In this document: positions 45,823 through 49,909 of the stretch, one piece after another
Position numbering within the stretch: position 1 is the first letter of the stretch
Layout: each line of letters starts with the position of its first letter
Assembly: GCF_001592045.1 (NCBI RefSeq)
Contig: NZ_BCWB01000038.1
Span: 62,001 to 126,000 of the forward strand
Direction: 5' to 3'
DNA: 64,000 nucleotides
Source of the DNA: Thermobifida fusca NBRC 14071 = JCM 3263
GTDB lineage: Bacteria > Actinomycetota > Actinomycetes > Streptosporangiales > Streptosporangiaceae
Notes under the pieces: generated by a model
Databases searched by the model: none
Seen by the model: the letters and a program-made list of their open reading frames with translations, nothing else
What the model was told of the DNA's origin: nothing
Position numbers and translations under genes: made by a program

Positions 45823-46992
45823 TTGAACGGCAGCAGCCAGAGAGCAGCAAGAGTCCGTCATCCATCCGACAAGCTGGTAGAACACGTCTGCGAAACGGCC
45901 TTCTCCCCGTTCCGGAGAAGACGGCAGCGTGAATGGGGGGAAGTGTATGTCAAAGGCCTTCTCACTACTGCGGGAAGGAAATCCATGCGCAGTATCGCCA
46001 GCAGTGCGGGGATGTCTTCCGCAGAGCAGAATCTGCACCATTTCATTACCAATTCGACGTGGGACTGGAAAGAGGTAAGAAGAGAACTCGCCCGGTACGC
46101 GGATAATGCGGTAGCACCCGTCGCATGGGTCGTCGACCCGCTCGTCATCCAGAAGGCAGGCGAACATTCCGTCGGAGTCCGGAGGACATTCGTCCCCGGA
46201 TTGGGAAAAACCGTGCAACGCCAATATGTCCTCGGGGTCTGGATCGCTTCCGAGAAAGCAAGCGTGCCCGTGGAATGGCATATGGTCCTGCCCGACAAGT
46301 GGACCAGCAGCGAATCCCGCCGCAAAGTCGGCACACCCGGCAAAGCCTGCCCGTCGCGCAGCGACTGCCTGCGGGAAGCGATCGAAGAACTCTCCCGGTG
46401 GGGGCTGCGGCAGCGTCCCGTGGTCATGGACGCCCGGGAAGTCGACCCGCTGCCGCTCATCGGGAAACTCGCCGCCAGCTCCGTCCCCTTCCTGCTGCGC
46501 ATCAGGGAAGACACCCGGCTCGCCGACCTCGAATCCGGACGGTTGATGGCCGCCGCGCAGCTCGCTGAACTGCACAAGGGGGCGAGCCGGCCACTGCTCC
46601 CCGCCGGATCCGGTGCCCCCAGGACCCCGGTGTGCGGGCTGGGCCTGCGTGTCGGGGCCGCCGGACCCGTGCGCACCGGACCGCTCCTCATGGCGGCGCA
46701 GTGGACCGCCGACCCCCGGGCAGCCACGATGATCTGGCTGACCAACATGGTTGACACGCCCATCCCCATGCTCCTGGGACTCGGCAGGGCCCTCCACTGG
46801 GTCCGCGCTGACAGGGAAACGTGCAGCCGGGTCGGCATGCGCGACTTCGAAGGACGTTCCTTCCCCGGATGGCACCGCCACATGACCCTGGTCTCTGTGG
46901 CGCACACCATCGCCGTGCTCACCCGTACCGGGCAGCAGCGCCAGCAGTGGACCCGGCGCACGGAGGCCCGCCTCGGGCAACTGGTGCACTAA
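45823..46992 (+). CDS. IS701-like DDE transposase, possibly domesticated
   Basis: A 389-residue protein of the IS701/DDE_5 type. N-terminal helical segments (EWGEVYVKGLLT, EQNLHHFITNSTWDWKEVRRELARY in part) lead to a DDE core: Asp105 in VVDPLVI, Asp203 in VVMDAREVD and a likely Glu343 in RDFEGRSFPGWHRH. The start is TTG 45823 with a strong AAGGAGG site four bases away. I found no terminal inverted repeats or target-site duplication, and the frame is intact, so it may be a retained host gene rather than a mobile IS. Similar solitary genes are frequent in Streptomyces. Confidence 0.75.
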   Translation: MNGSSQRAARVRHPSDKLVEHVCETAFSPFRRRRQREWGEVYVKGLLTTAGRKSMRSIASSAGMSSAEQNLHHFITNSTWDWKEVRRELARYADNAVAPVAWVVDPLVIQKAGEHSVGVRRTFVPGLGKTVQRQYVLGVWIASEKASVPVEWHMVLPDKWTSSESRRKVGTPGKACPSRSDCLREAIEELSRWGLRQRPVVMDAREVDPLPLIGKLAASSVPFLLRIREDTRLADLESGRLMAAAQLAELHKGASRPLLPAGSGAPRTPVCGLGLRVGAAGPVRTGPLLMAAQWTADPRAATMIWLTNMVDTPIPMLLGLGRALHWVRADRETCSRVGMRDFEGRSFPGWHRHMTLVSVAHTIAVLTRTGQQRQQWTRRTEARLGQLVH

Positions 46993-47212
46993 ACGCGGCT
47001 GCCCAAGCCGGACAGGACGACACCAGCGGGACCGGGGACGCGCAGGTCAACGCCTGACCGCGGACCCGGACCCGTTACCCCCGCCCTTCGACCCGCCGCC
47101 CTGCACCCGGCCACCCGTGCAGCGGGGAGACCTTGCCTCCAGGGCAAGATCACTCTGTCCAAAGTGCGAGACGCCTGGACGGGATGCTGAGACAGCGGTT
47201 AACCTCGTGAGC
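46993..47212. other. metYX upstream region
   Basis: About 220 bases before the leader peptide. The hairpin CTTGCC-N5-GGCAAG (47134-47150) is visible. No SAM riboswitch consensus was recognised. Confidence 0.4.
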
Positions 47213-47296
47213 ATGGTTGAGCTGGTCTCGCGCCGACACATCGACTACGCCCGTGTGAGCAGCATGCTCTGTCGCGGCATGCGCTGCATGTTCTGA
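47213..47296 (+). CDS. Met/Cys-rich leader peptide of metYX
   Basis: A 27-codon frame (ATG 47213, TGA 47294). It contains RRHIDYARVSSMLC followed by a stretch with further Met and Cys codons (three Met and two Cys in the last ten residues). The RRHxD...RV.S..C pattern matches, as I recall, the short leader frames that mediate cysteine-responsive attenuation in mycobacteria and other actinobacteria, where a Cys run near the end stalls ribosomes. It ends 145 bases before metY, and hairpins at 47378-47391 and 47398-47422 lie between. Confidence 0.65.
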   Translation: MVELVSRRHIDYARVSSMLCRGMRCMF

Positions 47297-47377
47297 TCAA
47301 CCGACGCTCTTCTCCCGCACTGCGTCTGCCATACCGGCGTGCTGCCAACCATTCCACCCTTCCCACCGACCGATCCT

Positions 47378-47422
47378 GGCTGGGGTCAGCCGTTTCCAGT
47401 GCCTGTTTCCCGTTGTGGCACT
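47378..47422 (+). promoter_or_regulatory. hairpins between the leader peptide and metY
   Basis: GGCTG-GGGT-CAGCC (47378-47391) and AGTGCC-N13-GGCACT (47398-47422) lie just before the metY ribosome site (AGGAG near 47433). They are candidate attenuator or sequestering structures. Confidence 0.45.
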
Positions 47423-47441
47423 GCGTCCTGACAGGAGCATC

Positions 47442-48773
47442 ATGACCGCTGAAGACACCACGCCTGAATCCACCGCGGCCGACAAGTGGTCGTTCGAAAC
47501 CAAGCAGATCCACGCCGGAGCGGCCCCCGATCCGGCCACCAACGCACGGGCCACCCCCATCTACCAGACCACGTCGTACGTCTTCCGGGACACGCAGCAC
47601 GGGGCCGACCTGTTCTCGCTCGCAGAGCCGGGCAACATCTACACGCGGATCATGAACCCCACCCAGGACGTGCTGGAAAAGCGGGTCGCGGCTCTGGAAG
47701 GCGGGGTCGCCGCGGTCGCGTTCGCGTCCGGGTCAGCTGCCATCACCGCTGCCGTCCTCAACCTGGCGGGTGCGGGTGACCACATCGTGTCCAGCCCGTC
47801 CCTGTACGGCGGCACCTACAACCTGTTCCGCTACACCCTGCCCAAGCTCGGCATCGAGGTCACCTTCATCAAAGACCAGGACGACCTCGACGAGTGGCGT
47901 GCCGCGGCCCGCGACAACACCAAGCTGTTCTTCGCGGAAACCCTGCCCAACCCGGCGAACAACGTGCTCGACGTGCGCGCGGTGGCGGACGTCGCCCACG
48001 AGGTCGGTGTGCCGCTCATGGTCGACAACACCGTGCCCACCCCCTACCTGCAGCGGCCCATCGACCACGGCGCGGACATCGTGGTGCACTCGGCCACCAA
48101 GTTCCTCGGCGGCCACGGCACCACGATCGCGGGCATCGTGGTGGACGCCGGCACCTTCGACTTCGGCGCCCACGGCGACCGGTTCCCCGGCTTCGTCGAA
48201 CCCGACCCCAGCTACCATGGCCTGAAGTACTGGGAGGCGCTGGGACCGGGTGCCTACGCTGCCAAGCTGCGGGTGCAACTGCTCCGCGACACGGGCGCGG
48301 CCATCTCGCCGTTCAACAGCTTCCTGATCCTCCAGGGGATCGAAACGCTGTCGCTGCGCATGGAACGGCACGTCGCCAACGCCCAGGCGCTCGCCGAGTG
48401 GCTGGAATCCCGCGACGAGGTGGCGAAGGTCTACTACCCGGGCCTGCCTTCCAGCCCCTACTACGAGGCTGCAAAGAAGTACCTGCCCAAGGGGGCGGGT
48501 GCGATCGTCTCCTTTGAGCTGCACGGCGGTATCGAGGCCGGACGCGCCTTCGTGGACGGCACCGAACTGTTCAGCCAGCTCGTCAACATCGGTGACGTGC
48601 GCAGCCTCATCGTCCACCCGGCCAGCACCACGCACAGCCAGCTCACCCCCGAAGAGCAGCTCGCCAGCGGGGTCACTCCCGGCCTCGTGCGGCTGTCCGT
48701 GGGCTTGGAACACGTTGACGACCTTCGCGCAGACTTGGAGGCCGGGCTGCGCGCAGCCAAGGCATACCAGTGA
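47442..48773 (+). CDS. metY: O-acetylhomoserine aminocarboxypropyltransferase/sulfhydrylase
   Basis: A 443-residue PLP enzyme making homocysteine from O-acetylhomoserine and sulfide. It shows the MetY family features: [40 protein letters not shown], the PLP lysine in [11 protein letters not shown] (Lys220) and VRLSVGLEH near the end. ATG 47442 has AGGAG upstream, whereas the longer GTG frame at 47415 does not. It overlaps metX (GTGA). A Met/Cys-rich leader peptide upstream suggests translational attenuation in response to sulfur amino acids. Confidence 0.96.
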
Positions 48774-49909
48774 GTCACGACACCACCCCTCCCCTTCCCG
48801 CGACCGGCGCGTGGCGGGAAGGGGACCCTCCGGGCGACCGGCGCTGGGTCGAACTGTCCGAACCTCTGCAGCTGGAGACCGGGGGTGAACTTCCCGGGGT
48901 CCGCCTGGCCTACGAGACGTGGGGCAGTCTCAACGAGGACCGCTCCAACGCGGTCCTCGTGCTGCACGCCCTCACCGGCGACAGCCACGTCGTAGGCCCG
49001 GAAGGCCCCGGGCACCCCAGCCCAGGCTGGTGGGAAGGCATCATCGGCCCCGGGCTGGCACTCGACACCGACCGGTACTTCGTGGTCGCCCCCAACGTGC
49101 TGGGCGGCTGCCAAGGCAGCACCGGGCCGTCGTCGACCGCGCCCGACGGCAGGCCGTGGGGGTCCCGGTTCCCGAGGATCACCATCCGCGACACGGTGCG
49201 CGCCGAGTTCGCCCTGCTGCGCGAATTCGGCATCCACTCGTGGGCCGCGGTCCTCGGCGGGTCCATGGGCGGGATGCGTGCCCTCGAATGGGCGGCCACC
49301 TACCCGGAGCGGGTGCGTCGCCTCCTGCTGCTGGCCAGCCCTGCGGCCAGCTCCGCACAGCAGATCGCCTGGGCCGCCCCCCAGTTGCACGCCATCCGGT
49401 CTGATCCGTACTGGCACGGTGGCGACTACTACGACCGTCCCGGTCCGGGACCGGTCACCGGCATGGGAATCGCCCGCCGTATCGCGCACATCACCTACCG
49501 GGGTGCCACCGAGTTCGACGAACGGTTCGGCCGCAACCCCCAAGACGGGGAAGACCCGATGGCCGGGGGCCGGTTCGCTGTCGAGTCGTACCTGGACCAC
49601 CACGCGGTCAAACTCGCCCGCCGGTTCGACGCGGGCAGCTACGTCGTGCTCACCCAAGCCATGAACACCCACGACGTGGGTCGGGGCCGCGGCGGGGTGG
49701 CGCAGGCGCTGCGCCGGGTCACCGCCCGCACCATGGTGGCCGGGGTGAGCAGCGACTTCCTGTACCCCCTCGCCCAGCAGCAGGAGCTCGCCGACGGTAT
49801 TCCCGGGGCCGACGAAGTCCGCGTCATCGAATCAGCCTCGGGCCACGACGGGTTCCTCACCGAGATCGACCAAGTGTCGGTCCTCATCAAAGAACTGCTG
49901 GCGCAGTAA
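48770..49909 (+). CDS. metX: homoserine O-acetyltransferase
   Basis: A 379-residue alpha/beta-hydrolase-fold enzyme that acetylates homoserine for MetY. Full length. The oxyanion region is HALTGDSHV, the nucleophile elbow GGSMGGMRALEW (Ser165), and the Asp and His parts are DFLYPLAQQQ and SASGHDGFL. Its GTG start overlaps the metY stop, so the pair is cotranslated. A hairpin follows. Confidence 0.97.
   Translation: MSHDTTPPLPATGAWREGDPPGDRRWVELSEPLQLETGGELPGVRLAYETWGSLNEDRSNAVLVLHALTGDSHVVGPEGPGHPSPGWWEGIIGPGLALDTDRYFVVAPNVLGGCQGSTGPSSTAPDGRPWGSRFPRITIRDTVRAEFALLREFGIHSWAAVLGGSMGGMRALEWAATYPERVRRLLLLASPAASSAQQIAWAAPQLHAIRSDPYWHGGDYYDRPGPGPVTGMGIARRIAHITYRGATEFDERFGRNPQDGEDPMAGGRFAVESYLDHHAVKLARRFDAGSYVVLTQAMNTHDVGRGRGGVAQALRRVTARTMVAGVSSDFLYPLAQQQELADGIPGADEVRVIESASGHDGFLTEIDQVSVLIKELLAQ

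Follow-up and report, generated by a model that had tools for sequence, protein, structure and literature searches.

The cysteine leaders of M. smegmatis are described as leaderless and as attenuating translation of the downstream gene (PMC9031893, available portion); translation attenuation is also named for them, and a general start-occlusion scheme given, in the accessible part of PMC13236596. Candidate cys leaders of actinobacteria were put forward by Seliverstov et al. 2005 (PMC1262725, excerpt), and in S. lividans the metL leader precedes metNIQ (PMC8079986, excerpt). Titles and the beginnings of abstracts, a scope that leaves most subscription papers outside, yielded no metY leader peptide and no rule of UGU codon use. 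Here we analyzed a leader upstream of metYX in Thermobifida fusca NBRC 14071 (genome size 3.64 Mb), within a window of 64,000 nucleotides, by which we mean the whole stretch of DNA examined.

The leader frame and its start

47213..47296, + strand: leader ORF of 27 codons plus stop, MVELVSRRHIDYARVSSMLCRGMRCMF; kept at metY and matched by two NCBIfam leader models below their cut-offs
47287..47295, + strand: 9-nt insertion relative to three congeners, adding Cys25, Met26 and Phe27 (L001 compared with L006, L007 and L200)
47442..48773, + strand: metY, bifunctional O-acetylhomoserine/O-acetylserine sulfhydrylase (NF005872, 831 bits, cut-off 703)
48770..49909, + strand: metX, homoserine O-acetyltransferase (NF047917, 585.6 bits, cut-off 475)

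The frame opens with the ATG at 47213 and closes with the stop at 47294-47296. Direct reading confirmed the description in a first-pass annotation of this DNA: 27 codons, the last ten of which include three Met (18, 23 and 26) and two Cys (20 and 25). That annotation had also inferred that ribosome progress through such codons sets metYX expression; two of the five codons lie in a species-level insertion. The other three Thermobifida leaders end in CRGML, CPGMR and CRGMR; nine extra bases give that of the window its ending, CRGMRCMF. The end ATGCGCTGA (Met-Arg-stop) recurs in L296, L298, L014, L015 and L200, and leaders with this end precede PAPS reductase-type and metY genes of unrelated genomes; the recurrence could be either chance or RNA pairing. 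An IS701-family transposase gene lies at 45823-46992 (NF033540, E 5e-79), its end about 220 nt 5' of the leader start.

The peptide resembles two described families, NF042936 (leader_Ms4527A; residues 2-21, 25.8 bits, curated cut-off 45) and NF042934 (cis_reg_atten; residues 4-20, 20.7 bits, or 20 in the genome search, curated cut-off 27), but is a member of neither by their own rule. None of 150 genomes of the order passed the NF042936 cut-off.

47176..47181, + strand: -35-like hexamer TGGACG, 18 nt 5' of the -10 (direct reading)
47200..47205, + strand: -10-like box TAACCT, ending 7 nt 5' of the leader ATG

Most near relatives showed TGGACG or TGGTC at equal distance. A TAnnnT box preceded an in-frame ATG or GTG by 5-8 nt at 31 of 36 metY leaders (2.4 expected by shuffling) and in 36 of 89 control leaders (3.0 expected by shuffling); its position just 5' of the start at the 31 metY leaders suggests a leaderless uORF. 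In S. lividans, 17% of transcripts are leaderless, with TAnnnT as the -10 (PMC8079986, excerpt). The promoter spacing fits a leaderless start, which is probably how the uORF of the window begins. A stricter sigma-70 scan at the leader found no promoter. Two copies of the motif GAGAC, offset by 21 nt, flank the -35 (47168-47172 and 47189-47193). Between the -35 and the -10 lies the second copy, TGCTGAGAC, most of which is shared by Thermobifida, Actinorugispora and L039; the repeat is a possible operator for some regulator.

Conservation of the leader and its cysteine codon

MetY was searched for in 345 genomes of the order, and 38 genomes, from 10 of 70 genera, were positive at E <= 1e-180. 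The first-pass annotation had placed a leader of the RRHxD...RVxS-Cys kind ahead of metYX and had named absence of the frame from relatives as a finding that would speak against it. This part of its reading was borne out: by uniform reading of the upstream DNA, a leader of the RRHxD..RVxS..C type stood before metY in 20 of the 38 genomes, and a similar frame occupied the same place in the three other MetY-carrying Thermobifida genomes and in several other genera. One genome (G582) had a leader copy that had lost the core Cys, and the contigs of two (G632 and G174) were too short to judge. No leader of this type was found upstream of metY in 15 of the 38, comprising G032 and 14 genomes of genus g46, a genus that also includes genomes with a metY leader. 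Thirteen leaders and one decayed copy were read among the best 80 of 204 metY loci. In the class outside the order, MetY was present in 196 of 394 genomes, and the leader was found at six of the 35 metY loci read from them. The metY leader set comprised 36 leaders from 17 genera; L221 lies 410 nt upstream of its metY and may not belong to that gene. Near-group leaders share the core peptide MxLVSRRHVDYxRVxSMxC, and residues of the metY leaders are kept while their codons vary. Judged from these comparisons, the leader is real and conserved, a variant specific to metY within a known class of leader peptides.

A chance open reading frame without function could be argued from the 15 genomes of the order that have metY without the leader and from decayed copies in some Nocardiopsis (L106, L203), but it is refuted by peptide-level conservation across genera together with the promoter pattern, and we give it practically no credence. 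In L106 and L203 the promoter and frame are kept and the core Cys is lost (VVGVPWRP); beside the 14 leader-negative g46 genomes, these leaders read as a natural loss series. Nocardiopsis quinghaiensis has metY on two contigs (L076, L078), with an identical leader at both.

Control leaders were taken from an NF042936 search of 150 genomes of the order (133 matching) and an NF042934 search of 246 genomes of the class (188 matching). The 100 loci picked (30 + 30 + 40) were not a random draw, the first 60 being the best-scoring and the other 40 chosen for spread; removal of three metY leaders and the unparsed L118 and L260 left 95. Among the controls, 24 families are represented. Five downstream proteins were assigned by Pfam: a rhodanese, a nitrite/sulfite reductase, a PAPS reductase, CbiX and a 2OG oxygenase, the last at a locus from the A1 profile search, outside the 95 controls. 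By these assignments, the same kind of leader precedes sulfur genes, namely the first four. The genome of the window has four further leaders (L324, L325, L327 and L328), of which L328 is upstream of a nitrite/sulfite reductase (Pfam) and L324 falls into the rhodanese cluster. Leaders carrying T-M-x-C or S-M-x-C (L149, L150, L151, L167, L169, L170 and L172) precede a putative isopenicillin-N-synthase-like 2OG oxygenase, identified by Pfam for L169 and by reading for the other six; this gene is not known to belong to sulfur metabolism.

47270..47272, + strand: core Cys20 codon UGU, the proposed control codon (from the UGU tally across leaders)

The core Cys, 13 residues downstream of the motif's first Arg, is present in 169 leaders and encoded by UGU in 168 of them (150 of 151 when each sequence is counted once). 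Because the leader searches were run at the protein level, no codon was favoured. UGU was found at this position in 34/34 metY leaders with a core Cys (two further metY leaders have Trp there), 95/95 controls, 4/4 other leaders of the window's genome, 13/13 same-genome controls, and 22 of 23 A1-search leaders, the exception, L173, having UGC. At the other Cys codons of 73 unique control leaders with three or fewer Cys, UGC occurred 71 times and UGU seven times (Fisher 2e-35), and the background share of UGU in downstream frames was 0.17. Poly-Cys leaders of f6 genomes often use UGU outside the core position as well. On these tallies, the near-invariant element of the leader is one Cys codon (UGU), not the Met codons. 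One tRNA-Cys (GCA) decodes both UGU and UGC. In the Streptomyces metL leaders (L235-L252), the first Cys of ARC is UGU in 18/18.

Methionine codons and the spacer

For the comparison of Met in leader tails, two long-tailed controls were dropped, leaving 93 with 73 unique tails. The 23 non-metY A1-search loci were kept out; as the A1 profile itself contains Met, its 22 Met-bearing tails are no evidence either way. Of the unique tails, 19 of 31 from metY leaders and 10 of 73 from controls contained Met (Fisher P=2e-6); it was present in none of 17 non-metY leaders, four from the window's genome and 13 from nine further genomes. One of the nine, G174, has metY, with upstream sequence too short to reveal a leader there. 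Some Met was seen in 12 of the 17 metY genera, 10 of which had it in every leader read, and five had none. The Streptomyces metY leaders carry no Met in the tail, which reads TTTGCHAAS or TTTGCPAGS. An SMLC tail stands before a putative nitrite/sulfite reductase in f21 genomes and an SMGC tail before a 2OG oxygenase (Pfam) in genus g87. Mixed Met/Cys tails precede metY in two f40 genomes (SQMCMPCDAFVRMPGCP and SQMCRMPGMRRCDRP). Met codons as a general sensor were rejected on the five genera without tail Met and the S-M-x-C tails before non-methionine genes. The first-pass proposal of combined Met and Cys sensing survives in part: Met is enriched in metY leaders, but its role as a sensor was not supported, and methionine sensing by the leader is a possibility.

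47297..47429, + strand: C-rich, G-poor spacer (54 C, 30 G, 16 A, 33 T), a possible Rho-loading stretch
47378..47391, + strand: hairpin 1 of the first-pass annotation, 5-bp stem, present as a string
47397..47423, + strand: hairpin 2 of the first-pass annotation, 7-bp stem, present as a string

Both hairpins reported earlier exist as strings in the window, but neither string was found in the four nearest relatives tested, and RNA from the leader to metY had no folding advantage over shuffled sequence (z +1.33; stability equalled or exceeded by 183 of 200 shuffles). Conserved hairpins were rejected on both grounds. No terminator-like site was found between the leader and metY, and with no intrinsic terminator and unconserved hairpins a classical transcription attenuator was also rejected. 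Searched at E up to 5, Rfam returned as its sole match an 18.3-bit microRNA on the opposite strand, far below its gathering score; at gathering scores, 20 metY loci of relatives returned nothing. A SAM or other riboswitch was rejected on these results, which agree with the earlier statement that no SAM riboswitch was seen in the region.

Pairing with the metY start and a proposed mechanism

In the mycobacterial cysteine attenuator, part of the leader is complementary enough to the downstream gene's ribosome-binding site to pair with it. Two segments of the window are relevant here.

47264..47273, + strand: AUGCUCUGUC, Met18-Leu19-Cys20 plus one base, complementing the metY Shine-Dalgarno region with one bulge
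47430..47441, + strand: metY ribosome-binding region GACAGGAGCATC (direct reading)

The first of these complements GACAG(G)AGCAU of the metY start, with one bulge. As the start of metY we took the ATG with the best match to AGGAGG, a simple rule. With AGCAUGCUCUGUC as probe, nine distinct SMLC-type metY starts (the Thermobifida/Nocardiopsis group) gave -11.1 kcal/mol vs -8.3 kcal/mol for 83 other distinct starts (P=0.0027); SMLC-type starts compared with 23 Nocardiopsis starts without a leader gave P=0.047, and 7 of 300 shuffled probes matched the performance of AGCAUGCUCUGUC. Start sequences differ (GACAGGAGCA, GACAGAGG, AGGAGAGCAT), yet the fit is kept, L039 excepted (-5.3 kcal/mol). Over 30 loci (the 36 metY leaders minus L107 and L220, which had no metY start by the rule, with duplicates merged), matched leader/start pairs outbound permuted pairs (P=0.004); relatives are not independent, so that the P values overstate. 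The leader-start helix was present in an alignment fold of five genomes, and since its columns are mostly invariant, covariation is nearly absent.

In the window's own RNA ensemble the leader-to-start pairing probability was 0.00, and modelled stalling at Cys20 left the openness of the window's metY start unchanged. Leader-start pairing exceeded one half in only 5 of the 30 loci, the metY start was no special partner of the leader (mean rank 0.52 over 30 loci), and in some loci, such as L014, L013, L129, L215, L216 and L219, pairing was worse than with shuffled leaders. Start occlusion as a rule for all metY leaders was rejected on the mean rank and kept for the near group only, in which it is plausible. 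The Met-Leu-Cys codons may be kept as an RNA pairing with the metY ribosome-binding site.

At the level of sequence, the family resemblance, the position, the leaderless promoter pattern, the near-invariant UGU and the near-group complementarity are established, and of the signals considered, cysteine read at a single UGU codon has the best support. We propose that the leader ties metYX to cysteine supply through a stall at Cys20 that would free the metY start. This would be mycobacterial cysteine attenuation adapted to metY, and we consider the proposal evenly balanced between right and wrong. The ribosome would start at the 5' end of the transcript and synthesize the conserved RRHIDYARVSS peptide. 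A shortage of charged tRNA-Cys would then stall it with the UGU of Cys20 in the A site; this codon, decoded through G-U wobble, would be the slow one, and the conserved peptide, lodged in the exit tunnel, may aid the stall. The stalled ribosome would cover the Met-Leu-Cys codons, leaving the metY Shine-Dalgarno unpaired and metY translated. With ample cysteine, the ribosome would reach the stop and leave, and AUGCUCUGUC would then bind GACAG(G)AGCAU and turn metY off. Stalling, its signal, help from the peptide, start occlusion and the direction of the response are the parts that we infer. Against the Cys20 model, the leader has one core Cys codon and no Cys run, and 15 of the 38 metY genomes of the order have no such leader; cysteine sensing by itself does not account for the excess of Met at metY.

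The earlier view, in which the leader reads methionine and cysteine supply through Met18, Met23, Met26 and both Cys codons to set metYX, draws on the enrichment of Met (19/31 vs 10/73 unique tails, 0/17 in controls of the same-genome type), on the mixed tails before metY in two f40 genomes, and on metL, a Met/Cys leader published as preceding metNIQ in S. lividans (PMC8079986, excerpt), homologues of which were present in 19 of 20 Streptomyces genomes searched. We nevertheless consider it unlikely: five of 17 metY genera, Streptomyces included, have no tail Met, SMxC tails precede non-methionine genes, Cys25 and Met26 lie within the species-level insertion, and the Met codons can be explained as pairing sequence. 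Less doubtful, though still the weaker expectation, is that the Cys-sensing ribosome governs Rho loading on the C-rich spacer, instead of or besides start occlusion. Rho has been suggested for mycobacterial cys leaders (PMC1262725, excerpt), and an intrinsic terminator was not found. The C-skew was 0.26 in 27 leader-metY spacers vs -0.02 in 66 metY upstream regions without a leader, two sets that come mostly from different genera. C-richness 3' of stop codons is common in such genomes and was counted against this output; because the spacer is C-rich, Rho stays a candidate.

It is also conceivable, but improbable, that UGU is fixed as an RNA signal (a structure, processing site or protein site) rather than as a slow sensor codon. 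UGU and UGC differ in nucleotide, not in amino acid; the base 3' of UGU is never G in 87 unique control leaders; and AGC encodes the offset-10 Ser of 42/47 controls and 27/29 metY leaders, against a background of 0.24. However, peptide residues are kept while codons vary, the bases flanking UGU vary, and no partner was found that explains UGU family-wide.

Returning to cysteine sensing at Cys20, a wider form of this proposal can be offered tentatively, with less confidence than we place in the model for metYX itself. The whole actinobacterial family may be a nascent-chain-assisted single-codon sensor, in which the RRxxD..RVxS chain would make the ribosome hypersensitive at one wobble-read UGU, 13 residues past the first Arg; codons of the metY leader would double as antisense to the metY start, with a methionine check in some lineages. 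If cysteine sensing at Cys20 is right, metYX, the direct-sulfhydrylation step of methionine synthesis, would be wired to cysteine supply by the peptide code also found ahead of genes for sulfite, PAPS and sulfurtransferase functions. That UGU hardly varies bears on whether wobble or the nascent chain makes one codon a sensor, a general question for leader peptides.

Comparison with described leaders

The cys leaders of Seliverstov et al. are likewise short ORFs with Cys codons and no terminator, but stand before cys genes; for a genome set that includes T. fusca, the excerpt of that paper reports no conserved RNA structures upstream of methionine operons (PMC1262725). The metL leader of S. lividans is leaderless, as the leader of the window probably is, and likewise has a Met/Cys-rich end, no clear terminator and a methionine-related target (PMC8079986, excerpt). 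It ends in ARCMCRRMCAF, and the leader of the window ends in LCRGMRCMF. In contrast to the latter, metL as given in the excerpt has no RRHxD..RV motif and precedes import genes, not metYX (PMC8079986).

The mycobacterial polycysteine short ORFs (Canestrari et al. 2020, as related in the available parts of PMC9031893 and PMC13236596) are leaderless uORFs, as the leader of the window probably is, with sulfur genes next; their Cys codons likewise lie near the end, and attenuation is said to affect translation. They carry a Cys run, whereas the leader of the window has one core Cys plus Met codons; its Cys20 and Cys25 are separate, not the consecutive run of the mycobacterial attenuator. The poly-Cys leaders of f6 genomes share the RRxVD..RV motif with the metY leader. 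Unlike the mycobacterial polycysteine ORFs, the leader of the window precedes metYX, and its proposed partner is the metY start.
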